From NCBI GenBank assembly GCA_907163375.1, contig CAJQUW010008928.1, positions 62,001-126,000 on the forward strand: a stretch of 64,000 nt of DNA. The letters are read 5' to 3'. A program made the translations under genes and the position numbers. Below, in pieces: positions 34,623 to 52,831 of this stretch (its first letter is position 1; each line of letters opens with the position of its first letter). The notes below the pieces were generated by a model that saw only the letters and a list, made by a program, of their open reading frames with translations, searched no databases and had not been told where the DNA came from. Source of the stretch: Prostheceraeus crozeri (taxonomy: Eukaryota; Platyhelminthes; Polycladida; Euryleptidae).

Positions 34623-34626
34623 AGTT

Positions 34627-35184: not shown

Positions 35185-35191
35185 CACATCG

Positions 35192-35422: not shown

Positions 35423-35479
35423 GTTGACTGTGAATAATGACTTTGAAATGTTTTCTAATTCTTAAGTATACACAAGCAG

Positions 35480-35527: not shown

Positions 35528-35696
35528 CAAAGTGACATTCATATCATTTCACTCTGTCTTTGAGACGCATAAGTGAACTGTTGTGTAGCGAATTCTGTAT
35601 TTGAGGCGTACAAGTGAACTGCTCTTTAGTGAATTCCAAATTTGAGTGAAGTCTCTATCTTGTTGAAGTATCAAGCTTAAACATAATTTCGTTCAA

Positions 35697-38600
35697 ATGG
35701 TAAGTTGAAAATTTCCTCTCTCATCTCCCTCAAACGTGTGGCTAATAGCATCTTCCTCAATTTCAGGCATCAACTTCATCACCAACACCCTCCCTTCTCG
35801 AGGAAAGTTTAGAGTTGTTGAGTCAAGGTAGGTTGTAACAATACACTGAGACTTGAACAGAGATGAAAGAATGATTTCTCTTTCAGGTGATACCAGTTCC
35901 ATCTCGTGCGAGTCCATATCAACATTGTCGCGGGAATGCGACGATCGGCAATGTGCTGACTGTGGACACATCTTCACGAGGAAGCGTGATCTCATCCGAC
36001 ACATCAAGCGAGGTGTTTGTAGACCTAAGCCGGCATCAATCTCCGAAGGTAGGGATGATTCTGTTAACGATGTCTCCTTTTCTTGCGATTTATGCATTCA
36101 GTCTTTCGAGACACGTTTTGAACTATCTTCGCACAGACTTCAACATACACACACGAACGATACCTACACCAACGGTGCCTCCTCTATCCGACTCACTGAG
36201 GTGTCCATAAATAATTTAGTGAGGAACTACCAGATGGACTCCTCAGAAACCATTGCTAACTTTGAGGAATGGTTTCATCAAAATTCATCATTGATAGAAG
36301 TGCTCTTCAACAATTTAGACAATTTTAGAATGAAGGCGCTCATCTATCTTAAAATAAAATATGTAAAAATCGACCACCATACTGGACAAATAATAGAGAG
36401 GTTGGAGTTTCACATACCCTCCTCTCCTGCAACCGAAGTTGTAGACTGTGAGTCTTGGATAAATTTTCATATCCAAGGGTTAAAATTAAATATAGATAAA
36501 TTTAACGAGCGTGATAGTGGACTCGTTTTTGATGGTATTGAGACCGCCATGATTAAAATCAGTTTATTAGGAAATCATAGTGGTCGAGGCTCCTTTAAAC
36601 TTCCGAAAAATTTAAGAAATAAAGCAGCAGTCATTTCTGTAGATTGCGAATCGCAATGTTTTAAGTATGCCGTCCTCTCCATTCTCCACTATAATGATGT
36701 GCAGAATAGCCGATACCGCAAGAGTAAGTATCAACAGTGGGAGAATGAATTAAACTTCGATGACTGTAATAGTGACGATATGAAAATTAAAGATATAGAA
36801 AAATTTGAAAAATTGAACAACATCAAAATAGTTCTCCATGTTTGGGAAAAGGGATTGAAGGGTGTGCGCTACAACTCGCGTTCGAGTTGTTATGAACGTA
36901 CAGTAAACCTGTTATTAGTAAAACAGGATGATAGTGAGGAATGGCACTACTGCGGTATTCCCAAAATCTCTCGCTTATACCACCACTTAGAAAACTCTAG
37001 TAGAGAGTTATATTACTGCGACAGATGTATTCGCCACTTTAGGAGGAAAACTAAATTTGAAACTCATTACGAATGGTGTAAGCGAGGTAAACTACAAATG
37101 GAGCGCATGCCCAAAGATAAGGAGTTTTCATATAGAGAGAATGGTGATGAACTAAGTCCTCTTCGTGTCATCTATGCTGACATCGAATGTTATATCGATG
37201 ATAACATCCATCGACCAGCAGCCATTTCCTGCTATGAAGTATGGCATGATCACTTTAGGAGTAGGCAAAATAAAATGCGCGTCTGGCAAGGTGAGGATTG
37301 TATTTACCAATTCCTACAATTCCTCGAACAGGCTGTAAAATTTCAACAAAAGTATGATGGTGAACTCTATCGCAGATCATTGCATATGACAGCAGATGAT
37401 CAAGCAAAATTTGATAGTTGCAACGCTTGCCCCAAATGTAGGAAAACATTTGACGATGATAAGATTAAGAAAGTGCGCGACCATGATCACATCACTGGTA
37501 AATTTAGAAACGCACTCTGTTCAAAATGCAATTTTTCACTTAGGATGAAACGGCGTACATTACCCGTCATTTTCCATAATTTCAAGGGCTACGATAGCCA
37601 TATGATAATAAAAGGAGGTTTAGGTCAAATGAAAGAGTGGAAGCTTGATGTAATAGCACAAACGAGAGAGAAGTTTATGGCCATGACAGCAAAAGTGCCT
37701 GTCGATAAAACTAAAGAAAATAAGACGGTCTATTTTGATATAAAATTTTTAGATTCCTACCAATTTATGACTGCATCACTGGCCTCTCTCGTGCAAAATC
37801 TAAAGTCTCTTCCACTAACACAAAATCTTAAGAAACAATATCCAAATCTAACCGATGAAGTCATCACACGGAAAGGAGTCTTTCCATATGCATATTTTGA
37901 TGCGATTAGTAAACTCGGCGAGACTTCTCTTCCGCCCATAGATAAATTTAAAAATGATTTGACCGGCGCAGAATGTAAGACTGAAGATTATGATCATGCA
38001 CAAGATGCATGGATAAAATTTGACTGCCATACATTTGGTGAATATATGATTGCCTACCTTAAGTTAGATGTATTTTTGCTGGCTGATGTATTTCAGGAGT
38101 TTCGACGAGTGGCATTAGAAGAAGATAAGTTAGATCCCGTCCACTTTGTCAGTCTGCCAGCCATGTCATTTAAGTCTGCTTTTAAAATGACTGGTGAGAC
38201 CATTCATCTCTTACAAGATCCAGAGATGTATAATTTATTTCAGCGAGGAATTCGCGGTGGTCTCACATTTGTAAATAAACATAGGTTAAAATCTGAAACA
38301 GTAGGTAATGATCAGACTCATCTTAAGTATTATGACCAAAATAATTTATATGGTAGTTCACTATCCAAACCACTCCCTCACTCTGAGTTTAGCTGGTTAG
38401 ATGATAGTGAAATTCAGCATTTCTCCAACCCTTCTAACATACTAGCAATCCCAGATGAAGGTGATTGGGGATATTATTTTGAGATAGATCTAATCTATCC
38501 AAATAATATTAAACATAAAACCGTAGATTTTCCACTCGCACCCGAATCAGGTGAAGTGAGTAAAGATATGTTTTCCGACTTTATGAAACAATTTCATAAA

Positions 38601-39560
38601 GATTTAGAATCATGCGGTCAACCCGACTATAAGCCTTGCCGCAAACTTTTACTCACCCAGTATGATAAGGAAAACTATCTAGTCCACTTTAGCATCTTAA
38701 AATTTTATTTAGAAATGGGAATGATTTTAAAAAGAGTTCACCGCATTATTAAATTTAGACAGAAAGCCTTCCTCAAACCATATATTGATAGCAACAGCCA
38801 GAAACGTGCACTAGCCCAAAATAACTTTGAAAAAGATTTTTATAAATATAAGAACAACAGTCTATTTGGTAAGACGATGGAGGATGTTAGAAAGCGCGTA
38901 AACTACAAACTAGTTAATGATGATCAAAAGTATCACAAATTGACCTCATCACCTCTATTCATCGATAGAGACATTATCGATGAGGACCTTATAGGTGTTA
39001 AAATGATAAAATCTGAAGTTGAGTTGTGCAAACCCATCTATATTGGTCAAGCTGTACTAGATTACACCAAGCTTGAAATGTATCAACTCTTCTATAAAAT
39101 ACTAAAACCGTGTCCTCTCGTAAAAGAGGTTCGTTTGTTGGGTGGTGACACAGATAGTTTCTTCTTAGGTATTACCACTCAAAAAGATTTAAATTTTAAT
39201 GAAGTAGGAAAATCTTTAGAAAGATATTTTGATACATCAAATTATCCTACTGATCATCCACTATACTCCATCAAAAATAAGGCCAAACTTGGTTGTTTTA
39301 AGGATGAGACAGCAGTGAATGAGATAGCTGAAATGATTCTCCTCCGCCCTAAAATGTATTCTATGAAATTAAAGGATAGTGATGATAGCATTAAGCGCGC
39401 TAAAGGCATATCAAGATCATTGGTCTCTAACATGAAACATAAAAATTTCAAGGGAGCCTATAGAAATAAAAATATAACGTTTGTCAATATGACAATCTTA
39501 AAATCTAAGTCGCATGAGATAAAAACTCATACTTTTAGGAAACGGGCGCTTTCAGCATGA
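35697..39560 (+). CDS. POLB: protein-primed family B DNA polymerase, 1245 aa, three exons
   Basis: Exons are 35,697-35,699 (ATG only), 35,767-35,827 and 35,887-39,560, with GTAAGT/TTTCAG and GTAGGT/TTTCAG introns, all in frame. In order: two zinc fingers (residues ~40-95); an N-terminal domain repeated as a separate gene at 49,844; a conserved Cys/Tyr segment; exonuclease motif DIE (~452); a zinc/HNH-like DHDHITG block (~560); ExoII FHNFKGYDSH (~583); ExoIII YLKLDVF (~744); polymerase motif A DQNNLYG (~836), motif B NNSLFGK (~1008), motif C GDTDSF (~1107) and RPKMYS (~1174). All catalytic residues are present. It ends at TGA 39,558-39,560. Forty further in-frame codons beginning with a DKRCW block suggest an ancestral longer C-terminus. 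AATAAA at 39,966. Confidence 0.95.
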
Positions 39561-39986
39561 GAGGATAAGAGGTGCTGGCTAGAACACAACATATCTCGTC
39601 CACATGGACATCCTGACACAAACATACCACCACCCAAAAGAATTAAACTCACACTACCACATTCAGGAGACGTCTTAGCATAATCATCCTTAACTTAGTA
39701 TTTTGATGTTGATTTCTGTAGATAAACATTGTTGTTTTATGTATCGCATGAGATTGTTTTTTCCTTGTGAATATGTGTCCACATCTGTACATTCCCCATG
39801 TTATGACTTTTCCACTGAAAGACATTTTTCCTATCCCTGTATATTTCCACCCTTCACGAAGTAAAGACTTTTTGTATATAGCAATGTTTATTGAAGTGCG
39901 CTCATGTATATATTTTCAGTGGATGTTGTATAAAGTCTATTGCTTCACATTCATGTACATATTTCAATAAATGTTGTATAAAGACT

Positions 39987-41506
39987 TCACTTTGTTTTCC
40001 GAAACACTAACGTTATGAGGGATTTAGTATCTTTCACGTGGATGCACTCTTGTAAACCATTGGTAATTTTGATAGCAATAGAGGGTATAGTTTGTTTGAC
40101 GACGGGATGATAGAAAATAGATTCAAACATCTTCTCGACTATTCCATATGAAGCGTCTTTATCATGAATGAAATCACGTAAAATGTATTCTTTTTTCTCA
40201 CCAACAGAAATAGGTAGAATCAAATCACTTTGAATGTAAAGGTGCTGTTCATGTTTATCAAGTGTCATTGGTGTTTCTATACCAATCGTATGCGCAGCAG
40301 CAAACACAGTTTGTAGCATTGAAAAACCAAAGAGTTTTTTCAAATTTTTACTCAATTGACATTGAATGTCATCAACCAGTCTCAGAACAACGCGTTGATT
40401 TTCAATTGAAAACGAAATGTGGTGTGTCTTTACATCATATTTACTTTTCATCACATGCTTCAACTTCTGTTGTATATAAGGATTTACTACATGAATGAAG
40501 CTTTCAACTGTATGATATAGACGCGGCATTATATTGATAGCAACTTTAGATTCTTCATAAGACTGGTAAATTTTCTTGATGCGATCGCCATAGATGTCCA
40601 CCCACCATTCATCATTAACTGAATCAGCTTTAGTGTGATATTCATGAGAACCATACACCACACCGCTTCCAATAATAGGTGTATAATGTCTTACAAAATG
40701 ACGCAAGGTTGGAGAGAAATAAACTGTAAGTTTGTCATTATATTTCTGAATAACCAACTTATTTTTGTCCGCCATAATTTTTTCTCCATACTTCTTACCC
40801 ACAGTCTCATTCCATCGTTTTACTAACTCAATAAGTGATAAAGGTTGAACACCACGCTTTTTCAAAATGATGCGTTCTTCGCATTCTACAACATCTTCAT
40901 CAAATATTTTAAATCTATAATGAAATTTGTTGATTCGATTTGAATAAACTTTTTTAACATTTTCAGTAGCAATTGACGTTAGATGTAGTCCATGACCAAA
41001 ACCAAGATGTGGATAGAATTCACTATCCAACCTCAGCGTAAGACCTTTAGTAAAAGAATGAAAGCGGAGGAACTGTCTCCCACTCCAATGATAGATAGTA
41101 AACTCATAAGCTTTCTGATTTTTATTCTTCATGATGGAAGTATTACCACTGTTGAATGCCTTAATAATTTTCTCATTCCCAAATGGCTCATAAGAATCTG
41201 ATTTTATCTGAATCCATTCATAGTTCCACTTTCCATCTGATGTTAAATTGTATGGGAACTGAAATGCATTATTCATCGTTATTCCATCATGGTGCGAGGA
41301 GTCAATATCATTTCTTCCAAATCATTCACATTCTGAATATTGCTATCATAGCAAATACTAGAAACGCCAACCTCCCATTCACCTTCTAAATGCAGTGGCC
41401 GATTTAATTCTACTCGATAGTCTGATGGTTTATTTTTGGGAAATTTATTCATAGAAGCATTACTGGGCAAGTAGATTAGAAACGAGTCCTTATTTTCACT
41501 TTCCAT
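39987..41506 (-). CDS. Polinton structural-type protein 2 (frame break near 41,300)
   Basis: An N-terminal part starting at ATG 41,506 (LPSNASMNKFP..., LEGEWEVGVSSICY) stops at 41,279. The next frame runs 41,276-39,987 (429 aa) with LFGF, an IQSDLI...VGEKKEYILRDF segment and a C-terminal IAIKITNG. Both halves parallel the neighbouring gene at 41,546-42,960, so they are probably one protein of about 510 aa split by one indel, though two separate proteins cannot be excluded. The family is common in animal Polintons as a presumed virion (minor capsid or fibre-like) protein; that role is inference. An ATGCAAA element lies 34 bp before the ATG. Confidence 0.65.
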
Positions 41507-41539
41507 ATTATTCACATTGGAAAAATATATTAGCATACG

Positions 41540-41546
41540 TTTGCAT
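41540..41546 (-). promoter_or_regulatory. ATGCAAA late-promoter candidate (structural gene 2)
   Basis: ATGCAAAC on the minus strand, 34 bp before ATG 41,506, overlapping the end of the upstream gene. Confidence 0.6.
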
Positions 41547-42960
41547 TAACTCTTCATTCGGAAATGGAGTGTGATACTTGTCACAGCATCTTTATGAAAA
41601 GTAATCAACGCACCAGCATCGTCATAAATGGCAATATCAATTTGTGGGATGTAGTTTGATTTCAGCTTGTATAATGCACTTTCTTGAAAGTATGCTCAGA
41701 TAAAATACTGCAGCTCTTTGGCTGGTATGGTATCATTGCTAGCAATGGAGCTTCAACATCTCCCACACGTACATCTTCACCAATATTGGAATATATCTGA
41801 AAATAGTTAATACGACGCGATAGCGACATGTCTGCTCTAGCTTTGGTTACAGTACCACTTTTAAAGATATTTTGATCAAAACCCAAAATGTCCATTAGAG
41901 TTTTATCCATAATTAGTTCAATACCTTTTCCACTTATAGTGAGAGACAAAGTACCTTCTTTTTCAGAAAATGAAATATGTTGGTCATTAATCACTTCATT
42001 TAAATAATCTACAACCAATTTAACCGAAGTAATAATGCGAGGCATCAACACTCTTGTTTCATGTAAGATACCACCTAAAGGCTCTACACACTTTCTGTAT
42101 AAAGATACGGTCCATTCTGTATCAAATTGATTTGACCTTTCACATGGTAAATGTTGCATATCAGATTTTCCATGAACAGCTGCAGAACGATGTCGTAAGA
42201 ACTGATGAAAATCTTTTGAACAAACTAATACTAGATCATCATCATTTAATTTGCTTATTGCAATATGATTAGATGATTTAATATAAGTCAATGTTGCCAC
42301 TTGTTTGCCATCAACTCGAAGGAGATAATTAAATTTCCTCAATAATGTTTCAGGAGTCATGTTTGTCTTTCTTGGCTTAATCACAATCTTCTTCACCAAC
42401 GTCTTCTTCACCAACGTCTTCTCATTTCTTGGAATAAGATCTACATAATAAGCTTCTTCCTCTCGATATATTAACTGTTTATGACCACTTATGTGGTAAT
42501 TAACGTTAAAATTATCATAGCTTGTTAAGGCGCTAGCGAGGTAGCCTAAATCATTTCTTAAACTTGGACTTAAACCAACAATCCAATCTTTCTCAACTAC
42601 ATGATGTACATAATTATAATCATCATTGTGCGGAGTAAATTGGACAATATGTTTACACGCTTTATTCAAGAAATCATATATAAACTTTTTACATGATAAG
42701 AGATCTTTCTTTGGCCACTGTGGAATGTATACTCGGCACCCCTTTTCACATTGATAAGCAGCTGTACGCCTCATATTAATAGTCATCACCTCATGATCAA
42801 AAGTATAGACACAGTTGCTATAAACAAGTTGAGTGACACCCACTTCCCAATTTCCATTTAGCTGTTGTGCATGATCAATGGGAGTAGAAAAGAGTGCGGC
42901 TCGATTACTAGTAAATCTCTTTGTAGCCGCATTGCTAAGCAAAATATGATAAAACGACAT
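41546..42960 (-). CDS. Polinton structural-type protein 1 (C-terminal frameshift)
   Basis: ATG 42,960 opens MSFYHILLSNAATKRF. LNGNWEVGVTQLVY (residues ~40-53) and FQIYSNIGEDVRVGDVEAPLL near the C-terminus are the family's hallmarks. The open frame ends at 41,662, but the family's closing segment (NYIPQIDIAIYDDAG...LHFR) continues in another frame to a stop at 41,546, so one indel lies near 41,675-41,690. Paralogue of structural gene 2. Virion role inferred. The upstream ATGCAAA element is 23 bp from the ATG. Confidence 0.7.
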
Positions 42961-42982
42961 TTTTATATTGCTAATCTGCAAC

Positions 42983-42989
42983 TTTGCAT
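42983..42989 (-). promoter_or_regulatory. ATGCAAA late-promoter candidate (structural gene 1)
   Basis: Minus-strand TTATGCAAAGTTG, 23 bp before ATG 42,960. It sits in the only 35 bp separating this start from the divergent PC4-like gene's ATG at 42,996, so it may act in both directions. Confidence 0.6.
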
Positions 42990-42995
42990 AACATC

Positions 42996-43352
42996 ATGAA
43001 GACTTGGATTTTGGACTCTCTACAATATATCAGAGTTGATCGTGATGGAAACGTACATTTCAAAAATTCTCATGGTCATACATCAAGAGGAATTACATTA
43101 ACATGGCGACAATTTGTCAACCTCAATGATATCATGAGGGATTTGGAATATTTTGAAACATTAAGATTCATCTCCTTGGGTGATCAAGTTTGGCTTCAAC
43201 ATTACAGAAATGAAATTCAAATCTACCATTCTCATTCCGCAAACTGTTTCTCATTTCGCAAATACAATTGGGAGAAGTATAGAAGATATATACATCGCTC
43301 CATCATGACATTTATTCGTCGTGAGTTCATCGCCCTACTATGCAAATCTTAA
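42996..43352 (+). CDS. PC4-like protein A, 118 aa
   Basis: Start chosen at ATG 42,996 (MKTWILDSLQ). The protein shows strands (YIRVDRDGNVHFKN), then RGITLTWRQFVNLNDIMRDL, then a second strand pair (VWLQHYRNEIQIYHS) and CFSFRKYNWEKYRRYIHRSI. The G-ITL-x-WRQF-x-L pattern resembles the end of the PC4/Sub1 single-strand-DNA-binding fold, and the protein could be two half-repeats. The PC4 assignment rests on pattern only. It is clearly paralogous to the next gene and has a remnant in the old element next to the TBP-like gene. Confidence 0.6.
   Translation: MKTWILDSLQYIRVDRDGNVHFKNSHGHTSRGITLTWRQFVNLNDIMRDLEYFETLRFISLGDQVWLQHYRNEIQIYHSHSANCFSFRKYNWEKYRRYIHRSIMTFIRREFIALLCKS
43340..43346 (+). promoter_or_regulatory. 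ATGCAAA late-promoter candidate (PC4-like B / TBP-like unit)
   Basis: ATGCAAAT on the plus strand, ending 29 bp before ATG 43,375, inside the end of the PC4-like A gene. Confidence 0.6.
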
Positions 43353-43374
43353 TCAGACATGACTACCACACATC

Positions 43375-44025
43375 ATGAGTTGGAAATTAGATTCCCTACA
43401 ACGTATTGAAACGGATAATGATCGAAACGTCTATTTCAAAGATTCAACTGGAAATGTGAGAAGAGAGTTTGCTTTATCTTATCGTCATTTTCAATCTCTA
43501 CATCATATCATGAAGGACTTGAAATACTTCTATATGAAAAGACATTCACGTATTGGAAATCGCATCTGGCTGCGCGTCAACAATCGGCGAATTCAACTCT
43601 ATCATTCCCAACTTCATACTAACTTCACATTTCATCAAGGTAGTTGGGAAAAGTATAAAAGGAAGGTACATCGCTCAATTTACTCATTCTTTCATCATGA
43701 AGCGCCATCGCTACACCATCGTCAACATTCTCCGTCGCTTCAGACTCTACACCAAAATCGATCTCACAACATTACACCAACAGCTTCCAAACAGCAAGTA
43801 TTACCCGGGCCGTCCTCAAATGTTAGTGGTGAAGATGAACAATTCACGGAATCTTCAACTCTTCCCAAATGGGACTGTACAGATTCTCGGCGCCCTTTCT
43901 CATTCATCGGCGCAGTCAATGCGCTTAGAGCTACAAAGACTACTACGTCGGATATGGAAGAGGGAGAGGTGTGTGATGTCGAATCTGACTGTGGACAATA
44001 TGGTGATCTCTACTCAATTGAGTGA
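43375..44025 (+). CDS. PC4-like protein B with a C-terminal tail, 216 aa
   Basis: Residues 1-105 align throughout with protein A (WKLDSLQ, REFALSYRHFQSLHHIMKDLKYF, IWLRVNNRRIQLYHS, FTFHQGSWEKYKRKVHRSI). The remaining ~110 residues are low-complexity Ser/Thr/His-rich, then acidic, and overlap the TBP-like gene in another frame for 329 bp. There is no earlier stop, so the tail must be made if the gene is translated. Role inferred: nucleic-acid binding or transcription cofactor. Confidence 0.6.
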   Translation: MSWKLDSLQRIETDNDRNVYFKDSTGNVRREFALSYRHFQSLHHIMKDLKYFYMKRHSRIGNRIWLRVNNRRIQLYHSQLHTNFTFHQGSWEKYKRKVHRSIYSFFHHEAPSLHHRQHSPSLQTLHQNRSHNITPTASKQQVLPGPSSNVSGEDEQFTESSTLPKWDCTDSRRPFSFIGAVNALRATKTTTSDMEEGEVCDVESDCGQYGDLYSIE

Positions 44026-44242
44026 CAGTCTATCATTTTTGAAGATTCGTACCAGCAGTTACAGTTTGTGTTATGAACCCGAACTTTTTCCTGCAGCTCT
44101 CATTAGTTGTTGGTTACCTGTGCATGTGGCAATCTTTCATAATAGTAAAGTGATCATTACTGGACTAAAATCTCATGTACAAGCAAATATGATCCTAGAC
44201 TATCTCATTGAGTATGTACGTACCCAGCGGATTGTAAAATAA
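43697..44242 (+). CDS. TATA-binding-protein-like protein, complete two-repeat core, 181 aa
   Basis: The length equals the conserved TBP core. Repeat 1 (residues ~6-87) has YTIVNILRRF, KIDLTTL, NSKYYPGR and LFPNGTVQILGA. Repeat 2 (~97-175) has NMVISTQL, SSYSLCYEPELFPAALI and VAIFHNSKVIITGLKS, the latter almost superposable on the TBP YEPELFPGLI and IF.SGKVVLTG signatures. Three of the four DNA-kinking Phe positions are kept (F56, F131, F147). The fourth, in the PKRF segment, is Pro40. Start ATG 43,697 lies inside the PC4-like B gene, so translation needs leaky scanning, reinitiation or its own mRNA. The TAA stop lies within AATAAA (44,238-44,243). A remnant in the old copy shows it is ancestral. 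Likely role: directing transcription of the element's own promoters (inference). Confidence 0.85.
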   Translation: MKRHRYTIVNILRRFRLYTKIDLTTLHQQLPNSKYYPGRPQMLVVKMNNSRNLQLFPNGTVQILGALSHSSAQSMRLELQRLLRRIWKRERCVMSNLTVDNMVISTQLSDSLSFLKIRTSSYSLCYEPELFPAALISCWLPVHVAIFHNSKVIITGLKSHVQANMILDYLIEYVRTQRIVK

Positions 44243-44243
44243 A
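44238..44243 (+). terminator. polyadenylation signal overlapping the TBP-like stop
   Basis: AATAAA contains the TAA stop at 44,240-44,242. A convergent minus-strand AATAAA for the protease unit is at 44,268-44,273. Confidence 0.7.
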
Positions 44244-44267
44244 AAACAATTTTTCCAACATGATGTT

Positions 44268-44273
44268 TTTATT
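44268..44273 (-). terminator. polyadenylation signal of the capsid/protease unit
   Basis: AATAAA on the minus strand, 25 bp after the probable true end of the protease reading at 44,298. Confidence 0.65.
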
Positions 44274-44297
44274 TCAAATCATGATAGAACTTACAAA

Positions 44298-44728
44298 TCA
44301 TTTTTCATTAGAGGATGGATTACATGAAAAGTTTTGAATAACAGATGCAAATCGAGATACATGTAAACGTCTTAAGATGAAGTACAGTACAAAAGCACCA
44401 CACGTTGATGAAGTGGATGTTGTAGTATGCGTTCATTTCGCTGATATTGACGCGTATGTTTTCTCAACCACTGCTGTGTTGGTATATTTGGAGGTTGAGC
44501 AAGAGAGTCAAATAGTTCACCACGTCGGTCTTCTCCAATAAAGATCGCTTTCCAATGCTCACCGCCTAAATTCTGTGAATGAGTGTTTAGCACAATAAAG
44601 ATGGGATAGTGATTTACTGCAGGTGGTAAGGTATCGAGTGAATAGACATTATCGAAAGCTTTCAACGTCGCTTCGTCTGCATTACGCTGCACTTTAGTCT
44701 TAATATCGTCAGCAGTCAACCAACTCAT
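44298..44728 (-). CDS. PRO: adenain-type cysteine protease (frameshifted before the catalytic Cys)
   Basis: ATG 44,728 shares its A with the capsid gene's TAA stop. His58 lies in GGEHW and Asp74 in ELFDSLAQPP, as in adenovirus-type proteases that mature virions. The open frame ends at 44,372 without the active-site Cys. The TCGAF motif with that Cys and the following helix lie in another frame and run to 44,298, so a single indel lies between about 44,406 and 44,440. No protease was found in the old copy, where TBP-like and capsid relics are only about 170 bp apart. Confidence 0.85.
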
Positions 44729-46005
44729 TAACGATTATACTGAAGAATCACGTCACGATACTTTGTAATTTCAATATTTGAATCGAAGACTGCATAAATT
44801 AATACATTGATCGTCTCAGGTAGTGTTCTTTTGAATGTCAAATCCAAACGAATATTATGAGGCACGTTCGCTTGACGATAGGGTGCACTAATATCGCTGT
44901 CAGCAGTCAAATCAAATGCATAAATAGTATATCCACTCTTAAACTCTTTCATAGTCAGTCCGTTGGTGTCATCCGTATTGTAAAAGCCAAAGACATCCAT
45001 AAAATCAACATAACTGCGCATAAATTGATCCGAAGCAAAATCTGGTTTGTAGGGTGGACCAGGATGACTCACACCATTAACACGTAAAGCAATTTCACTT
45101 AACTGATTGTGTTTAAAATTGAAAGGATTCTTCTTTATATTACCATTAAATGCATCATTTTCAACCATTGCCACCATGAGGAGCTTCGGTGCTTCCGATG
45201 GAAAGAGGCCATCTTTCATGAAACTCTTTTGATCTTTCGGAATTGTAAAGGCGAGAAGCTTTGTATGCTGAATGGGGTAAATGGCATTTTGGCGGTTAAG
45301 GCCTTCAGCATGCCCTCTGATGACACTTGGATTCGGTACTACTCGACGAATGTAAAGTGCAATATCTTCCACATGAATTCTAAAATTGTCAACTTTAGCA
45401 AATGCATTCAGCGCAAATTCAGGCTTATTCAATGTCAGCTTGAGTCGCATGCTGGTATTACACAGTAAAAACTTTGACTGTCTAAAGAAGTCTAAATTCA
45501 GCGGACCATATAGCTGACATACTTTACTATCTTTAATCATAGCAGATCGCTTTACAAAGCCACTGTTTGTTTCAACATCAAATTTTCCTGCTTCATCTCT
45601 GTACCATCCCATGGCTTCCATATGACTTTTTTGTGCTGCTGGATGAAACTGTGATACATGATTGAAATATGATTTATAGGGATAATCGCTTTGACCACCT
45701 TCCACCTGCTGCTCTCCAATCGTTAGAGAAACATCACGAAGTAATGTAGTCAATGGTAAATTGTTCAGTCCAACTTTATGTGCATCGTCAATAGCAGTTC
45801 CATCTGCTTGCTGAATTCTAAACCTCAAATCAAGCATCGCATAACTCAAATCTATGTAGTCATCACTACCACCAGGAATAACAAATTCAATGGGGCCAGC
45901 ATTCTCAGCTGTTCGAGGATGATAATCTACAATACTTGAACTAAGAATATCTGTCTGTATGGCTTGTTGATCGAACAAACAAAAACCGGAAGTTTTACAC
46001 TCCAT
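44728..46005 (-). CDS. major capsid protein, 425 aa
   Basis: Full-length reading of the Polinton capsid family (double jelly-roll fold by family knowledge). It has GPIEFVIPGGSDDYIDLS (~37-54), TIGEQQVEGGQSDYPYKSY (~94-112), KFDVETNSGF (~140) and ALYIRRVVPNPSVIRGH (~221-237), ending FDSNIEITKYRDVILQYN. It starts 2 bp after the stop of the basic-protein gene and its stop overlaps the protease ATG, so these three genes form one tight block. No frameshift seen. Confidence 0.9.
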   Translation of the reverse strand: MECKTSGFCLFDQQAIQTDILSSSIVDYHPRTAENAGPIEFVIPGGSDDYIDLSYAMLDLRFRIQQADGTAIDDAHKVGLNNLPLTTLLRDVSLTIGEQQVEGGQSDYPYKSYFNHVSQFHPAAQKSHMEAMGWYRDEAGKFDVETNSGFVKRSAMIKDSKVCQLYGPLNLDFFRQSKFLLCNTSMRLKLTLNKPEFALNAFAKVDNFRIHVEDIALYIRRVVPNPSVIRGHAEGLNRQNAIYPIQHTKLLAFTIPKDQKSFMKDGLFPSEAPKLLMVAMVENDAFNGNIKKNPFNFKHNQLSEIALRVNGVSHPGPPYKPDFASDQFMRSYVDFMDVFGFYNTDDTNGLTMKEFKSGYTIYAFDLTADSDISAPYRQANVPHNIRLDLTFKRTLPETINVLIYAVFDSNIEITKYRDVILQYNR

Positions 46006-46007
46006 GA

Positions 46008-46463
46008 TTAGAAGTTATAGCAGCGTCGTCGTTTAGCGCCTGATGAATGATTAGAGCCTCTACGACGTTTGCGTGAATACCTTTTGACTGAAGATCGCAC
46101 CTTACCAGCTCCGCGATGTTTCCTCCTTCCTTTATTCATTCGTTTAGGTGATTTCTTTCCTTGAGTAACACCAGCAAAGGTCTGCTTCAATGTTTTTAAA
46201 CCGCGTTCCTTCCCACGATTCAACAAACTGCTCTTAAAACTTCTACCTCTGGAAAGATCACTAGCAACATCACCAGCAAAGCCAACGGCATTACTTAAAA
46301 CATTTCGTTTTAAAGATCTACCGACATTGGATATGAGAGGTGCTACAACAGATTTCAGTGCACCAAGTATGCTACCTCCACGTTGGCGGCGAGCGCCGAT
46401 GTAAATTTGTCCTCCACCACTTACATAGGAGGGTCGTGAATAAAATGAGGCAGTTGGATTCAT
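46008..46463 (-). CDS. basic core/minor capsid-type protein, 151 aa
   Basis: A short N-terminus (FYSRPSYVSGGG) is followed by RRQRGGSILGALKSVVAPLI, a possible amphipathic helix, and by a very basic C-terminus rich in Lys and Arg (KRYSRKRRRG). The layout recalls adenovirus core and pVI-type proteins; homology is not claimed. First gene of the basic-capsid-protease block, with ATGCAAA 32 bp upstream. Confidence 0.7.
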   Translation of the reverse strand: MNPTASFYSRPSYVSGGGQIYIGARRQRGGSILGALKSVVAPLISNVGRSLKRNVLSNAVGFAGDVASDLSRGRSFKSSLLNRGKERGLKTLKQTFAGVTQGKKSPKRMNKGRRKHRGAGKVRSSVKRYSRKRRRGSNHSSGAKRRRCYNF

Positions 46464-46494
46464 AGCTCAAACCCTAAACATTGTTAGTTACAAC

Positions 46495-46501
46495 TTTGCA
46501 T
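46495..46501 (-). promoter_or_regulatory. ATGCAAA late-promoter candidate (core/capsid/protease block)
   Basis: Minus-strand ATGCAAAGTTGTAA, 32 bp before ATG 46,463 and only 4 bp past the integrase stop at 46,505. Confidence 0.65.
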
Positions 46502-46504
46502 GAA

Positions 46505-47591
46505 TCACTGTCGATCACTTAGATGAAAGATGTCGGCACGACGCATCCAAGAGTTCATACTTGAAGGATAACCAGTCCATTTAACAAGACACCATTCTTC
46601 ACCTTGCCGTTTTTTACATCGAATGATTTTCTCTACCAAATATGTTTCACTTTCAGTGACTACCTCAATCTCATCGCGTAAAAGCTACCCTCAATTTCTT
46701 CATTATCGTAATCTTTCAACTTGTAGGTGGTCGGAGAGTCTTTTTGATTAATCCTTGATACTGTAAATACCTCCTCTGTCCAATTCGGAAGGTACCCTTT
46801 AGCAAAAACACTTTTCACTTTTGAGATACGAACTTTATCGCCAAATTCACATCACTTTTCACATGAGTGCGTTTACGTTGGAATGATTCGCGCACTTTAT
46901 CTACATTGTCAGCATTTACATCTACTGGTCTGAGTCCAATAGAACGATGGATAGAGTGATTGTAGGCATGGAGTGTATCTTGTAGAACCTTTGTCCAATT
47001 TTGTGTCAAGTTGGCAGTAAAATGTCGCCACAAGCGATTTTTTAATGTGCGATTAAAACGTTCAACGAGTGCAGCTTTATAAGCGCTCTTTACACTAAAC
47101 AACTCAATGTCATGCCTCTCAAATAATCTTGTCACATGCTGATTTTCAAACTCTTTTCCTTGATCACTCTGAATTCTTTTTGGAATCCGACCTTCTCGAA
47201 AAATTGTTTGGAATGCTTTTGCTACTCCTTTCCCTTCTTTAGTTTTTAAAGGTTGAGCCCACGCATAACGCGAGAAAATATCAATGACGGTTAAAATAAA
47301 ATTATTGCCCGAGTTATGTTTTGAAATGGAGGCAACATCACACAAATCTGCTTGCCACTGTTCATCGATGTCATGAACAATATAATGGAGGGTGCGGTAC
47401 TTCTTTTTCGCTTGTTTGTGGAGTGTATAGGTAGCCTGACCCTTTAACCATCGTTTCACTTGTGATTGTGGAAGACCACTCGCTTTTGATAATTTCTTGA
47501 TAGATGCAAATCCTGCCGGATGTTTTACATCATAATAGATTGACTTCAAGCGTTCAGTCGATGACGGCTGACTCTTTTTCCTCCTTCTCAT
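46505..47591 (-). CDS. INT: retroviral-type integrase with C-terminal chromodomain (two frameshifts)
   Basis: Start taken at the ATG at 47,591 (MRRRKKSQP). A helix-turn-helix-like part (SQVKRWLKGQ) precedes the rve core with Asp82 (LCDV), Asp143 (SDQGKEF) and Glu177 (VERFNRTL), a spacing of 33 residues. The open frame ends at 46,815. In the next frame the linker GDKVRISKVKSVFAKGYLPNW continues, and after a second shift near 46,680 comes a chromodomain (YLVEKIIR, CLVKWTGYPSSMNSW) ending at 46,505. The catalytic core is whole, but the targeting tail is out of frame in this copy. It acts in the nucleus to insert the element. Confidence 0.9.
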
Positions 47592-47769
47592 CTTTTTGTT
47601 TTCTTGCCTTTCTACATTTACAACAACTGCAGCATTTAGCTTTAGCGGTTTTGCGATCGTGTTCACATTGCTTAGGGGTTTCATTATGAGAGCTGGCGCA
47701 GCAAGTGCAAGTGACAACGACATTCACCTCTGGCGGCTCATTACATGGCAAGCAACACATCTGCTTCAT
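47554..47769 (-). CDS. Cys-rich small protein, 71 aa
   Basis: Twelve Cys in 71 residues, many as CC or CxCC (CCLPC, CTCC, CCSCCKC), then a charged tail. Its ATG overlaps the preceding gene's stop as ATGA, and its end overlaps the integrase start by 38 bp in another frame. Metal binding is likely; no family recognised. It could be an accidental frame, but the ATGA junction argues for use. Confidence 0.45.
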   Translation of the reverse strand: MKQMCCLPCNEPPEVNVVVTCTCCASSHNETPKQCEHDRKTAKAKCCSCCKCRKARKQKDEKEEKESAVID

Positions 47770-48464
47770 ATTAATAGTCTGAGAACATGTATTTTCCTAG
47801 GAGGAGCTGTTTTACGTTTTCCTTTTACCAGTTTTAGTGGCGATGTAGATCTACGTCGAGTTCTTCCTCTTGTTTGCTTAGTGAGTGTGGGAGGGGATGT
47901 AGCAGGTGACGTCTTAAACCAATTTGTTGGCATTTTCATCGCCTGAAGCATTGGAGTAGTAGCCACTGTTGAATCAAGTTCTTTCAATGTCTCATTATTT
48001 AAAGCAAATTTTGGCACATTATGCTTTTTCAATAGTTTAAGAAAGTATGACCAACCAGGTGGAACATAGCCCTGACGGCGCTTTCTACGTGTCGCATACT
48101 GAATCAAGTCTTCATAACGTGAAGCATCAATCACTTTATTTTCATCTGTAATGATTTCTCCTCTATCATTTACATTGAGATGGGGCTCAATACTATTGAA
48201 AAGAGATATGGCATGTGCGCGAGATGCTAAAGGTGTAGCAGTCGATACAGAGTCACGCATCTTATTCTTCAAGTTTTTCAATTGCTCAACAGTTTCCGAT
48301 TGTAATAATACAGCACGATGTGGATCTTTGATGTGAACATTTTGCTGATAATCTATTTCTTTCCTATACATTTGATTTGCAAGAGGTTGCTTTACTTGCT
48401 GCATGGCAGTCAATTGTACATATTCATCCTGAGGAATAACAATCATGCAAGAATAAGAACTCAT
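47766..48464 (-). CDS. conserved Polinton protein of unknown function, 232 aa
   Basis: The N-terminal MIVIPQDEYVQL and the middle YEDLIQYATRRKRRQGYVPPGW...NVPKF blocks are also found in the old copy. The C-terminus is a basic Ser/Thr/Pro-rich tail (RGRTRRRS). Its ATG overlaps the ATPase stop as ATGA, which suggests coupled translation or one transcript. No enzymatic motif. Confidence 0.75.
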   Translation of the reverse strand: MSSYSCMIVIPQDEYVQLTAMQQVKQPLANQMYRKEIDYQQNVHIKDPHRAVLLQSETVEQLKNLKNKMRDSVSTATPLASRAHAISLFNSIEPHLNVNDRGEIITDENKVIDASRYEDLIQYATRRKRRQGYVPPGWSYFLKLLKKHNVPKFALNNETLKELDSTVATTPMLQAMKMPTNWFKTSPATSPPTLTKQTRGRTRRRSTSPLKLVKGKRKTAPPRKIHVLRLLI

Positions 48465-49078
48465 AGTTTGTAGATAATCATGGGAGTTTTCAAAATATCA
48501 CTTCGAAATCTAAATTCTTCCGGACACTCTTGCGTAAAGTCAATGAATAAGTAACCGTATGGTTTTTCAGTAGCTGCTTGAAAAATTTCAATTAAGGCTT
48601 TTGATCCTCTGGGTGCAACTTGTCGCGCTAAAATTTCAAATTGACTTTTATCTCGCGGATTCTTGAAAATAGCATAATAGTGTGTATTCAGGTTTCGTGT
48701 ACGAGCTTCTTTTCCATCAGGAAACAAATTTTGTGTAATATAGATGATAAAACACCTTTTATGGTGTGCTGCGCGAGTGAACATATCTGTAACATCTTTT
48801 GAATTCTTACTTTCTTTTAATAAATCATCCAATACAACAACATCATTAGACTGAAGTTTATCCACTGGAATAATTCCTTCATGTCGAATAAAGTTGCGAC
48901 TTTGCAATTCCTGAAACAGCGACGGTTGATAAATACCATAACACCAAATCACTCGATTGATAGGTTCCTTAAACAACTCCCTTCTTTTATCCAATAAATT
49001 CAGCGTGAAAACAGTTTTACCTGCATGAGATGGACCTGATACAGTCAGAACTTTATCACATTGAAGTCTGAAATCCAT
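48461..49078 (-). CDS. ATP: FtsK/HerA-type genome-packaging ATPase, 205 aa
   Basis: Start placed at ATG 49,078 (MDFRLQ), because a longer reading from 49,126 would run through the ATGCAAA element. Walker A GPSHAGKT is at residues 15-22, Walker B VVVLDD at 80-85, and a polar sensor-like YITQN follows about 45 residues later. Intact, at the usual family length. It pumps the genome into capsids in related viruses. A relic is at 18,319. Confidence 0.92.
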   Translation of the reverse strand: MDFRLQCDKVLTVSGPSHAGKTVFTLNLLDKRRELFKEPINRVIWCYGIYQPSLFQELQSRNFIRHEGIIPVDKLQSNDVVVLDDLLKESKNSKDVTDMFTRAAHHKRCFIIYITQNLFPDGKEARTRNLNTHYYAIFKNPRDKSQFEILARQVAPRGSKALIEIFQAATEKPYGYLFIDFTQECPEEFRFRSDILKTPMIIYKL

Positions 49079-49100
49079 TTTATTACTTTGAGACTCAACA

Positions 49101-49107
49101 TTTGCAT
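49101..49107 (-). promoter_or_regulatory. ATGCAAA late-promoter candidate (ATPase/232-aa/Cys-rich/integrase unit)
   Basis: Minus-strand ATGCAAAT, 23 bp before ATG 49,078. Confidence 0.65.
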
Positions 49108-49109
49108 AA

Positions 49110-49466
49110 TTAACGCTTAGAGCCAAAGATATTTCCCAATAGGTTGCCCACGGCAGGAGCTATCATTGGAAGTATTGCTGAAAGGAAACCGCCCTTTTGT
49201 GTTAGAGTTTTCCTCTTTCTTTGAAGGGCGACTTTAGGATTGGAGATGAAACGCAATTTCGTAGCATATCGCTTAAGTAACTTTCGTTGTTTTGGCGCTA
49301 ATTTCTTCGTCCTCAACTTCCTCACATGAGAAATAATTTCACAAATGAATTTATCGTTAGCATGTCGTATAGCATTGTATCGCTGATTTGCTTTCATTCG
49401 TCGGAGAGCTTGAATGGCTGAAGAAAACTTTTGACTTTTACGTTTCGTCATTTTACGTTTCGCCAT
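49110..49466 (-). CDS. basic virion-type protein with hydrophobic C-terminus, 118 aa
   Basis: Lys/Arg-rich body (residues 1-88), then QKGGFLSAILPMIAPAVGN, a hydrophobic or amphipathic C-terminal segment. This layout is common in Polintons beside the ATPase. The QKGG before the helix parallels QRGG in the 151-aa core protein. Minor capsid or membrane-active role is inference. ATGCAAA lies 40 bp upstream. Confidence 0.65.
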   Translation of the reverse strand: MAKRKMTKRKSQKFSSAIQALRRMKANQRYNAIRHANDKFICEIISHVRKLRTKKLAPKQRKLLKRYATKLRFISNPKVALQRKRKTLTQKGGFLSAILPMIAPAVGNLLGNIFGSKR

Positions 49467-49505
49467 TTTCCGTGTTAGTCTTTTCTAAAACCTATCTTTA
49501 CCACA

Positions 49506-49512
49506 TTTGCAT
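49506..49512 (-). promoter_or_regulatory. ATGCAAA late-promoter candidate (118-aa gene)
   Basis: Minus-strand ATGCAAATG, 40 bp before ATG 49,466. Confidence 0.6.
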
Positions 49513-49517
49513 AGGTA

Positions 49518-49847
49518 CTAACTATTGCGACATAAGTGACACTCGAAATGAGCAATATCACAGTGGTTACATTGGCAAAGTTGAATGCAATTACGTATGA
49601 AACAGCGTTGACAAAAAGCATGCTTACATCTCTTGAAGATGCGCTTTTCATTTCCATCCTTTAGCTTACATACATCGCAACACATAGTTTCACCGTTACT
49701 GATGTCTATAGCAAGTCTTTTTGAAGATATGAATTTGCTAGCCTTTTCTAAATAATAGACGCATGTACAGAAGGAATATACTTCGAGAGTGAGCAGGCAT
49801 AGCTCGAAAACCAGTTGTGCTACAATCAAGTACCACTGCGTTTTCAA
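49518..49847 (-). CDS. membrane-anchored C3HC4 RING protein, 109 aa
   Basis: A hydrophobic segment at residues 5-33 precedes a complete C3HC4 spacing: C57-x2-C60-x13-C74-x-H76-x2-C79-x2-C82-x20-C103-x2-C106. RING domains usually act as ubiquitin ligases; here, at a host membrane, it could target host or element proteins (inference). Its ATG overlaps the upstream gene's stop as ATGA. Confidence 0.7.
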   Translation of the reverse strand: MKTQWYLIVAQLVFELCLLTLEVYSFCTCVYYLEKASKFISSKRLAIDISNGETMCCDVCKLKDGNEKRIFKRCKHAFCQRCFIRNCIQLCQCNHCDIAHFECHLCRNS

Positions 49848-50254
49848 TTTTTCTTTATGGAAAGTTGAATGTGAATATCTGAAATCGCTTCAATCACTAG
49901 ACTGCTACCATGATGGTTAAATGCGTTAAGACGTTCAGCAATTTTTATCATATGTCTTTTAAAAAATTCTTGGGGGTGATCTACCACTTCCATTGAATAA
50001 GAAGCAAAATGGAAAGAGCGACTTTCCACCTCTTCCTTTCCAAAATGACTAAACTTAATTTTCGCAACTAATCGCGCCATGATAATGCTATCAGAGAATG
50101 TATTCATTAACTCTAGAAATAGAGTGCTAGCATCATCAACCACTGCTTCGATGTCGGTCTCATCTTTATGAAATTTTATCACATAATCTTGAACAGCTCC
50201 TTTTAAACTTTGCCTATGAAAACGTAATGTTCCGCAGTCGTTTGAGAAAGACAT
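49844..50254 (-). CDS. stand-alone copy of the polymerase N-terminal domain, 136 aa
   Basis: ARLVAKIKFSHFG...SRSFHFAS...EFFKRHMIKIAERLNAFNHHGSSLVIEAISDIHIQLS follows residues ~125-250 of this element's polymerase (ALIYLKIKYVKID...RLEFHIPS...SWINFHIQGLKLNIDKF...SGLVFDGIETAMIKIS) without large gaps. The domain lacks catalytic motifs. It may bind the same partner as the polymerase N-terminus or act as a decoy or regulator. Duplication within the element is the simplest origin. Confidence 0.65.
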   Translation of the reverse strand: MSFSNDCGTLRFHRQSLKGAVQDYVIKFHKDETDIEAVVDDASTLFLELMNTFSDSIIMARLVAKIKFSHFGKEEVESRSFHFASYSMEVVDHPQEFFKRHMIKIAERLNAFNHHGSSLVIEAISDIHIQLSIKKN

Positions 50255-50341
50255 GATCGCCCTTTATCTAACCCATCCATTGCATGAAAACAACAACTCT
50301 TCTCATAGTAACATTTATTGAATAACGGTAACAAGCATGCA

Positions 50342-50872
50342 TTATAAATCAATGGTTTGAAAGAGATAAAATAGATACAGCTGGTAACTATCATACAGCG
50401 AGCAATGATAACCATACAGGACTTTGGCAGTGTTGAGGTAAGGAGGAAAGAAGCATTGGTTATGAACGTAGCTACTACAACGAACAGACAAAATAGGAAC
50501 ACACAAATCCTTAAAACGTTTCGTGACTTCATGATAATGTTGATTCACTCTAGTATCCCAAGGTGGGAGCAAAATATCATCAATGATTAGATTGGGAAAT
50601 ACTTTCCTCTCCTTACCAGGATTATTACAAAAGATGCGTATAACATTGAAAGCAGCTAACCATCGTTTAAAGTCAATAAGAAGAGCACTCTCACAAGAAA
50701 AGCCATAGTCTTGCAAATATTTCAGATTAAGTCCATGAATGTGTTTTCTCGCCCATTGATCAACATTGGGATCGCAGTTGGCATGTTGATGATAGACACT
50801 AACAATCTGATATGTCCAATTGTTCATAGCAATAGCACTGAGCTCCTGTACAGGTTCACCCTCACAATCCAT
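50342..50872 (-). CDS. DEDDh-type (DnaQ/TREX-like) 3'-5' exonuclease candidate, 176 aa
   Basis: Begins MDCEGEPVQELS, giving a DxE first motif (Asp2, Glu4). Near the C-terminus HCSLYDSY matches the H-x4-D third motif of DEDDh exonucleases. Between them, RKHIHGLN, DFKRWL, NNPGKE and IIDDILLPPWDTR are conserved-looking, but I could not assign the second-motif Asp with certainty. Possible roles are proofreading, end processing or degradation of cytosolic DNA that would alert the host (inference). An overlapping hydrophobic frame at 50,203-50,532 is probably a shadow. Confidence 0.55.
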   Translation of the reverse strand: MDCEGEPVQELSAIAMNNWTYQIVSVYHQHANCDPNVDQWARKHIHGLNLKYLQDYGFSCESALLIDFKRWLAAFNVIRIFCNNPGKERKVFPNLIIDDILLPPWDTRVNQHYHEVTKRFKDLCVPILSVRCSSYVHNQCFFPPYLNTAKVLYGYHCSLYDSYQLYLFYLFQTIDL

Positions 50873-50923
50873 AAAAATGATGATAGAAGCCTCAAACGGA
50901 AATTACACATCTAAGGAAGCGTT

Positions 50924-51124
50924 CTATAACATATTACAAAATGAAGAATTACATCGATGCTTTTCACGACAAAATACACAAATGATATGATGGCAACGAA
51001 GAAGTAAAATGTATCTAATAAGACCACGTCTACGACACTCAAAGCACATAAGCGAATTGTCATAGGGTAGAGTTAGGAAAGGGCTAGTAATTCTCCTTCT
51101 TTGATTTGCGTTTTGATGTAGCAT
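50924..51124 (-). CDS. short RING-like zinc protein, ~66 aa
   Basis: From ATG 51,124: C27-x2-C30-x13-C44-x-H46-x2-C49-x2-C52-x5-C58-x4-C63, the same first-half spacing as the membrane RING at 49.5 kb but with a shortened last loop. It overlaps the end of the 235-aa gene by about 40 bp in another frame. The start is uncertain. Confidence 0.5.
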   Translation of the reverse strand: MLHQNANQRRRITSPFLTLPYDNSLMCFECRRRGLIRYILLLRCHHIICVFCREKHRCNSSFCNML

Positions 51125-51859
51125 TCTTCTCCGACTTGCGCTTCGTACCACTGCTCTTAAGGATTTGATCAATTATGTCGTCCACGTTGGGTGGTTTTGG
51201 AATATATAGGATGGATTCCATATGCATGGAGAGAGAGGCTATTTTATTATCCTTGTGTCGACCATAATATAGCCCATTCACTTTGAAAAGGATATCCCAA
51301 GTACCTTCTCCGAGCTCATCACATCTGATGGCTATTGATTGATCTCCCTCCTTCTTATAGTAAGTACACCAATGTGATACCGGTAGGCAAATGTGATTAC
51401 CATCCCAAATCTTTCTATAGGGAGTATCCTTGTCATCTCTAGCCTTCCACTCTTGAGCAAGAGGAGTAGGAATGTCCATATTTAATGTCACATACTCCTC
51501 AATAATATCAAGTTGGTGGCGAATGTACGGACTCACGGGGATCAGTATGTAGTCCCCATACTGATTGCGCATTATCTTGACATCCGTGGAAGGGAGCATT
51601 CCCGTTTGGAGTACTACGCTATGATCGTCATAACGCAAGACTTGTTTAAATTTACGCTGTAGCGGTGTAGGATTATGTACCTTGGTTGTTTCTTCCACTG
51701 GCCTCAGTTGTAGATGATCTGACCGTAGCGAACCTTGTAACGTTTGACCGCCATTTTGTCCTACTAGTGCAGCAGATGGAGTAGATGCCTGAAAATGAAA
51801 AAAGATTGTATTAAGTTTACGTTCAAGGGAGGAGAGGGAGGAAAGTAGCGACTTACCAT
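51084..51859 (-). CDS. spliced Polinton protein of unknown function, 235 aa
   Basis: Exon 1 contributes only ATG (51,857-51,859). The intron 51,789-51,856 (GTAAGT...TTTTCAG) is followed by GCATCTACTCC and an open frame to 51,084. Residues ~50-190 align with the relic at 18,960-19,580. The C-terminus is Lys/Ser-rich (KRKSEKNATSKRKSKK), like a nuclear localisation tail. No known domain. The ATG-only exon and GCATC acceptor context copy those of the polymerase gene. Its own CCAAT/TATA promoter suggests early expression. Confidence 0.75.
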
Positions 51860-51956
51860 TTTAGTTGGATAATAGAACAGGGAACTAGAGAGAGAAAATG
51901 TGCGTCCGTCACTCGTATGATTCAACGATGGAATGATTCTCACTGTGGAAGGCTCG

Positions 51957-52005
51957 CTATTTATACAGAAATGCTTGATTCTCATTGGATGATGATCCTC
52001 ATTGG
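51957..52005 (-). promoter_or_regulatory. early promoter of the right end: two CCAAT boxes and a TATA box
   Basis: On the minus strand, CCAAT at 52,005-52,001 and 51,988-51,984 precede TATAAATAG at 51,965-51,957. The layout mirrors the polymerase promoter at 35,480-35,527. Confidence 0.75.
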
Positions 52006-52018
52006 ACAATAACATCAA

Positions 52019-52831
52019 GCTGATTCCAAATCTGGCCTCCGTTTTCCAATCCGATGCTTCGTTTTGAAGCTAGAGTCCAAAACGTCCCAAATTCTAACTC
52101 TGTCGTTTTTCGCCAATGTCCCAAAATCTTAAATGGCGTCTCACATCTAAACGAAGACAGATAGGAACAAGCCGATTCTTTCAGTGAATTTGTCTCACTC
52201 TTAGCTTTCAAACGAGCTATCGCACGACAAAATCCGTCCACTGGAAGCCAAAATCGAAGCAAGCTTTCCAGAGGGGGGGGGGAGGTCAGCAAAATTTTTT
52301 CTCTCCGATTGACTTGAAACTCACCATTCAGATAGAGAATTTCACGCTGAATCCGAATCTGGCCTCCGTTTTCCCATCCGATGCTTCGTTTGGGCGCCAC
52401 ACACCAAAACGTCCCAAATTCTAACTCTGTCGTTTTTTCGAAAAATGTTGAAAATTTTTTCTCGCCGATTGACTTCAAATTCACCATACCGATGCGGAAT
52501 TTTACGCTGATCACGAATCTAAAGTCCGTTTCACCATTCCATCACGCCAACCTAGACGGTCGCCCACGTCAACCTAGACGGTCGCCCGCGTCAACCTAGG
52601 CGGTCGGCCACGTCAACCCATACGAGACCAACACATCCGAGTCTCACACTCTGTCGTTTTCGAGGGGGGGGGAGGGGGAGGGGGGGGAGTCAGCGAACAT
52701 GTTGTGAACGTGAACCAACCTGGCCGGCACACCACGACAGACCACAACCTCTGTCGTTCCAGAGGGGGGGGAGGGGGAGGGGGAGGGGGAGGGGGGCGCG
52801 CCGGTCGAGTGTTTGTCACTTGCTTACTACT
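52019..52831. repeat. right terminal inverted repeat, ~0.81 kb
   Basis: Inverted counterpart of the left repeat, ending GCTTACTACT at 52,831. It contains one copy of the inner unit, short repeats with GTCAACC and GGTCG (52,553-52,618) and G-rich tracts (52,663-52,688 and 52,762-52,796). It is far shorter than the left arm, which has three extra inner units. Confidence 0.92.

Follow-up and report, generated by a model that had tools for sequence, protein, structure and literature searches.

The window, a stretch of 64,000 nucleotides from the polyclad flatworm Prostheceraeus crozeri, contains a whole Polinton whose features are collected in Table 1. The element is bounded by terminal inverted repeats (about 29.6-31.9 and 52.0-52.8 kb) and by a 6-bp target duplication, CATACC, at 29606-29611 and 52832-52837, with the ends and the duplication as read by us. 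Its size, inverted repeats, 6-bp duplications and rve integrase are shared with Polintons/Mavericks and adintoviruses, and so, putatively, are its PolB-like, protease-like, ATPase-like and capsid-type genes. A 490-bp tandem repeat in three copies lies in the left terminal repeat region (30422-31881) and was not reported at the right repeat.

Table 1. Features of the Polinton and of an older copy, in positions of the window.
Feature	Position	Strand	Basis or remark
Decayed TBP gene of older, lineage-B-like copy	9646..10186	+	Homology search
Whole Polinton, 23.2 kb	29612..52831		Terminal inverted repeats, target duplication
PolB-like ORF, 1229 aa	35871..39560	+	Polymerase motifs by eye only; endonuclease VII domain
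ORF85	41279-41536	-	ATGCAAA box before start
ATGCAAA box before ORF85	41540..41546	-	10 bp before first ATG, 40 bp before likely start Met11
ORF432	41662-42960	-	ATGCAAA box 29 bp before start
ATGCAAA box before ORF432	42983..42989	-	29 bp
118-aa gene (ORF 42996), paralogue of ORF 43375, beside TBP	42996..43352	+	Sequence comparison
ATGCAAA before ORF 43375, inside end of ORF 42996	43340..43346	+	Probably only codons
216-aa ORF (ORF 43375)	43375..44025	+	Last 329 nt overlap TBP gene in another frame
TATAAAAG	43654..43661	+	43 bp before TBP ATG; only copy in element
TBP-like gene, two TBP lobes	43697..44242	+	ORF, Pfam, PDB matches, residue alignment, 61 homologues
Cysteine-protease-like gene	44372..44728	-	Adenain-like by eye
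ORF425, probable capsid protein	44728..46005	-	No family match
ORF151, virion-type gene	46008..46463	-	By position
ATGCAAA box before ORF151	46495..46501	-	38 bp
Integrase, rve domain	46815..47723	-	Pfam E 6.9e-11
Packaging ATPase-like gene	48461..49078	-	Weak, below-cut-off Pox_A32 match, E 0.022
ATGCAAA box before ATPase-like gene	49101..49107	-	29 bp
pX-like basic protein	49110..49466	-	Weak, below-cut-off Adeno_PX match, E 0.0024
ATGCAAA box before pX-like gene	49506..49512	-	46 bp

The labels protease, capsid and virion-type are putative and based on weak matches and position. The lineage-B homologue of the protease-like gene (lineages are described below) gives a weak, below-cut-off Peptidase_C48 match (E 0.017), ORF425 is presumed to be the capsid protein, and ORF151 is the first gene of a tandem cluster that also includes ORF425 and the protease-like gene. 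An endonuclease VII domain (PF02945) and weak matches to C2H2 zinc fingers were found on the PolB-like ORF, which has no Pfam polymerase match. For the ORF pair 42996/43375, a PC4-like fold suspected by eye was set aside as unproven (hhalign probability 1.4%, no convincing PDB match). Over 329 nt of the TBP gene (43697-44025), ORF 43375 is read in a different frame without a stop, and its product has 216 aa, or 217 aa in the S3 copy L046. Synonymous and nonsynonymous TBP changes are both lower inside this overlap than in the rest of the gene in 3/3 pairs (e.g., synonymous 0.21 vs. 0.30), a pattern that may point to a dual-coding stretch.

The ORF at 43697-44242 is open from ATG to TAA and encodes 181 aa without introns. 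TBP is the sole Pfam family on the product (PF00352, 71.6 bits vs. a gathering score of 22.9, E 4.9e-20), matching as two stretches on one chain and thereby giving two lobes, and the alignment to PDB TBPs runs end to end. A phmmer search of PDB with the sequence alone (E cut-off 10) gave 35 distinct chains, all of the TBP type (best E 5.3e-12), and the family profile (E cut-off 0.001) likewise gave 35 (best 1.1e-24). Every chain is named TBP, TFIID or TBP fusion, apart from one 'ECU04_1440 protein', which also aligns as TBP. The product shares 26% identity over 157 aa with the human TBP core, and hhalign of the family against that core reached a probability of 97.9% over 164 columns. Protein database searching identified 61 homologues (from ena, lgn and jgi sources, the longest contig being 24.7 kb), all with PF00352 and none named, so that 62/62 family rows match PF00352 at E <= 0.001. 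The nearest homologue of the TBP (82%) and the nearest foreign homologue of ORF 42996 (80%) are probably neighbours, since the longest contig is 1771 bp for both; no relative of the element was confirmed among IMG/VR and GTDB contigs. The initial annotation had described a complete TBP-like gene carried by a Polinton, with three of the four intercalating Phe present and one replaced by Pro, and had proposed a Pfam TBP profile as a check; the significant two-stretch match inside 29612-52831 and the residue alignment bear this out.

Residues were compared with human, microsporidian and archaeal TBP and across the 62-row family alignment, in Arabidopsis numbering. In TBP, the C-lobe sits on the 5' half of the box. 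Most C-lobe DNA contacts are nearly fixed across the family (Asn117 in 62 rows, Val119 in 62, Phe148 in 61, Phe165 in 62 and Thr173 in 61), as are Pro149 (61-62/62) and the TFIIB-contact glutamates (Glu144 61/62, Glu146 62/62), and the YEPELFP stirrup is present; position Val171 is non-canonical, with Ile in 44 rows, Met in 12 and Val in only 4 of 62. In the N-lobe, Phe57 is Pro in 58/62 (3 gaps, 1 Gln), leaving three of the four intercalating Phe, Val80 is Gln in 62/62, Thr82 is Leu in 56/62 (Met 4, Phe 2) and Val29 is Met in 38 or His in 11 of the 62 rows, while Phe74 (62/62) and Asn27 (50/62, 12 gaps) are conserved. The basic N-lobe helix is mostly unconserved. By this alignment, the residue change is mostly one-sided, with the N-lobe altered and the C-lobe largely canonical. 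Cellular TBPs (PF00352; eukaryotic and archaeal) thus share with the Polinton protein the two lobes, the length, most C-lobe DNA contacts, the stirrup and both TFIIB glutamates, whereas the Polinton protein differs in its low identity to human TBP, its N-lobe substitutions at Phe57, Val80 and Thr82, its basic helix and its transposon-borne location.

The gene is repeated throughout the host assembly (2.05 Gb, 14165 contigs), in which at least 150 rows listed among 11899 candidates carry a 100% identical, stop-free TBP. The COX1 of the host, translated with genetic code 5, has a tentatively bivalve-like appearance. Eight of the copies with the identical TBP, chosen for that identity, show base differences of 1.1-1.6% from the window across 3.1-3.5 kb. 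The homologue P0046 as query also gave at least 150 rows, with in-frame stops in 14 of those listed; 30 copies fetched in this way have a TBP 80-88% identical to that of the window and were sorted by eye into two subfamilies, S2 and S3. The TBP gene is under purifying selection, with a dN/dS of 0.13-0.26 in 10/10 pairs of five copies.

Two more distant lineages were also recovered. In lineage C (L040-L042), the TBP is intact at 179 aa and 42-44% identical to that of the window, PF00352 was found in 2/2 of the TBPs scanned, the PolB pieces are mostly 53-67% identical and lie in several frames, the gene order is different from the window element, and inverted repeats were found between the flanks in 2/3. 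The lineage-C pieces examined, which contain small gaps, gave no match to the capsid, integrase or ATPase proteins of the window. One of them (L042:7280-8878) holds a 532-aa transposase ORF (PF13843 DDE_Tnp_1_7, E 3.9e-67), which we take to be of the piggyBac type. Lineage B is represented by one copy, C375, with an intact 189-aa TBP (31% identical, PF00352 E 4.6e-14) that is less canonical by eye, as the C-lobe Asn and Val are both Thr. The neighbours of this TBP are homologues of the protease-like gene, of ORF425 and of ORF151 (ORF160 in this copy), and a small upstream ORF is related to ORF 42996; the copy is partly decayed, with a stop in the ORF425 homologue. A second lineage-B piece, L062, contains protease-like and ORF425 pieces only, ORF425 being in two frames, and does not reach the TBP.

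An older Polinton copy within the window itself resembles lineage B, its ATPase piece being about 79% identical to intact relatives. Its TBP remnant, which had been placed at 9,720-10,183, is real: with the window TBP as query only 9995-10129 was matched (E 2e-10), and with a related-lineage TBP the match extended over 9646-10186 (E 1e-32), adjoining a decayed ORF425 homologue at 10364-11280. The old copy also includes a duplication (11698-14371), seen as two pairs of identical 300-bp segments at a spacing of 1.44-1.45 kb, and a reverse transcriptase ORF (15939-17024; RVT_1, E 6e-24). From the intact ORFs in diverged lineages (80-88%, 42-44% and 31% identity) and the dN/dS values, the TBP is an old, selected component of these Polintons, in agreement with the earlier suggestion of an ancestral gene instead of a one-off capture.

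The promoters of the element were approached by ranking all 6-, 7- and 8-mers of 29651-52783 by the share of their sites lying at most 50 bp upstream of a same-strand ATG ORF, with ORF thresholds of 60 aa or more and also of 100 and 118. The top-ranked k-mers were ATGCAA, ATGCAAA and TATGCAAA. ATGCAAA was first of 13154 7-mers, with 6/8 sites before ORFs of at least 60 aa (binomial 6.3e-7 uncorrected, about 0.008 after multiplying by the 13154 7-mers) and 5/8 sites before ORFs of 100 aa or more; it is not enriched in the window as a whole (22 observed vs. 22.15 expected). As this ranking was made on the same sequence in which the motif had initially been seen, the comparison with relatives is the more independent test. 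The five boxes of interest precede ORF85, ORF432, ORF151 and the ATPase-like and pX-like genes. ORF85 probably starts at Met11, because its first ATG is replaced by GTG in one relative and the start of the lineage-B homologue is close to the corresponding position; the box-to-start distances are then 40, 29, 38, 29 and 46 bp, which is where a TATA box would lie if the leader were very short. Immediately before the box, ORF432, the ATPase-like gene and the pX-like gene have T, ORF151 has C (its relatives have T) and ORF85 has A.

Among relatives, in two diverged subfamilies, ATGCAAA is kept at the five virion-type genes in 18/19 compared rows, in which L043 and L056 are one copy counted twice (ORF85 2/2, ORF432 3/3, ORF151 3/3, ATPase 6/6 including that copy, pX 4/5), while the flanks show 1-16 changes per 50-59 positions, with few at ORF85 and at the ATPase of S3. 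Outside these genes, the site at 43340 is kept in 1/3 relatives and that at 44345 in 0/3; the eighth site, at 47504 in the integrase gene, was left out of the comparison. A promoter role of the 43340 site for ORF 43375 was rejected, as the site is lost in 2/3 relatives and is explained by codons. In the lineage-B copy, ATGCAAA precedes the ATPase, ORF525 and ORF160 in 0/3 cases, although the TBP is present; by eye, TAAGCAAA and TAAGCTAA occur there at a similar distance. The exact motif was also not found at lineage-C ORF starts or before the ATPase or ORF425 of the old copy, which is decayed. The exact box is therefore documented for subfamilies S1-S3 only, and as it is missing from the lineage-B copy examined and from lineage-C ORF starts, either the role of the TBP would be wider or box and TBP would co-evolve.

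The motif matches ATGCAAAT, the octamer of POU-domain proteins. ATGCAAA could accordingly be the site of a host factor, e.g., a POU-domain protein, that drives the virion-type genes, with the Polinton TBP supplementing host TBP at unchanged specificity; the largely canonical C-lobe and the lineage-B copy that has a TBP but no motif both speak for this. We consider this unlikely, since N-lobe changes fixed family-wide are unexpected for a plain supplement and the motif lies at TATA-box distance from the start codons.

The TBP gene itself is preceded by a different box, TATAAAAG, from which TATGCAAA differs at bases 4, 5 and 8. The GC step of TATGCAAA could be accommodated by the altered N-lobe contacts. 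TATAAAAG is kept before the TBP in 12/13 S2/S3 copies examined (it is absent in one S3 copy), most S2/S3 copies have a second one upstream, and a host-type TATA box precedes the TBP gene in S1, S2, S3 and C and is absent in B. The box overlaps codons of ORF 43375 for a conserved WEKYKR stretch; it was rejected as proof of early control because it also codes for these residues, and it is taken as weak support. The presence of this box in S1, S2, S3 and C, though not B, also speaks against a general role of the TBP in initiating transcription of every element gene, including those for replication, in a setting where host TBP is unavailable and ATGCAAA is one of several targets. Such a role would explain why the TBP is kept where only PolB-like and accessory genes were found, but by eye no shared box precedes PolB and the accessory ORFs, and we regard it as improbable.

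Some elements (L040-L042, L048-L053), about 17 and 20 kb in size, have long inverted repeats as well as PolB-like and TBP genes; they gave no capsid, integrase or ATPase match, and are possibly capsid-less Polinton relatives with an intact TBP and PolB in broken frames. The retention of the TBP in elements without a detected capsid gene, together with the intact TFIIB face and the mostly unconserved basic helix, would suit a TBP that interferes with host transcription, by competing for TFIIB or promoters, and so favors the element without selecting promoters. This too has a low probability in our judgment, as most C-lobe DNA contacts and one N-lobe Phe are (nearly) invariant, suggesting that DNA binding is needed, and the kept motif at the virion-type genes would be left unexplained.

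The best-supported reading, to which we assign slightly less than an even chance, is a promoter-selecting TBP that would borrow host TFIIB and RNA polymerase II and read altered boxes at virion genes. These Polintons would pass on an element-specific TBP as one of their core components. The C-lobe of this protein would still fit host TFIIB, allowing the use of host RNA polymerase II, and its re-specified N-lobe would bind altered boxes, namely ATGCAAA in this subfamily group, 29-46 bp before virion-type start codons. Host TBP could make the Polinton TBP first from the TATAAAAG box of its gene, which has the same spacing, and the Polinton TBP could then turn on the virion set, giving a presumed early/late order. 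The link between the TBP and the motif is one that we infer from sequence. A more specific version seems somewhat less likely: the element may have its own promoter system in which the conserved lobe borrows host TFIIB and polymerase II, the N-lobe Gln, Leu and Pro fit the GC step of TATGCAAA, and the boxes drift with the N-lobe between lineages. The initial proposal that the TBP lets the element choose its promoters is supported indirectly, by the family-wide change of N-lobe contacts and by a motif at the TATA position that is kept while its flanks changed; the 0/3 count in the lineage-B copy and the retention of the TBP where no capsid gene was found stand against it.

Comparable systems exist in viruses. 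The TBP-like proteins of beta/gamma-herpesviruses (KSHV ORF24, EBV BcRF1) combine a virus-type TBP with an altered TATA-like box before virion genes, the arrangement proposed here, and ORF24, with its TATTWAA late promoters (PMC12529657), is a precedent. According to that paper, ORF24 has all four Phe and a C-terminal domain that binds DNA, lacks the TFIIB glutamates and acts within a complex of six viral factors, whereas the Polinton protein consists of the TBP core alone and has the TFIIB glutamates and three of the four Phe. PMC7221094 identifies Glu144/Glu146 as TFIIB contacts and the basic N-lobe helix as a binding face for regulators; it reports one TFIIB glutamate conserved in about 40% of giant-virus/poxvirus TBPs, and a TFIIB-like protein in almost all viruses with a TBP, with none in poxviruses. 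In contrast, the Polinton TBP keeps both glutamates, and no TFIIB match was found among the ORFs of the element that were scanned. Mirusviruses, large viruses of the HK97 type, have a TBP in 59% of genomes (PMC10132985). A TBP is also described for mirus-like elements of Cymbomonas, in a source that does not place one in Polintons. The words TATA and TBP are absent from the Polinton/adintovirus papers PMC8097293, PMC11071296 and PMC11071308, and in PMC12220804 and PMC13037468 'tata' occurs only inside an author name. In agreement with the view that a TBP is undescribed for Polintons, none was found among the matches listed for Polinton/Maverick, adintovirus or virophage together with TBP/TATA, in a search that covered few subscription papers.

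To our knowledge, TBP is close to invariant in cells; viral TBPs are known from herpesviruses, giant viruses, poxviruses and mirusviruses, and Polintons are proposed ancestors of many eukaryotic DNA viruses. A selected Polinton TBP that is altered family-wide offers a direct test of how such an element could turn on its capsid genes. It also serves as a natural experiment on TBP specificity, with far more change in one half of the protein than in the other. If the more specific version, with a promoter system of the element's own, is true, these Polintons would possess a viral initiation switch made of a single bare TBP core.
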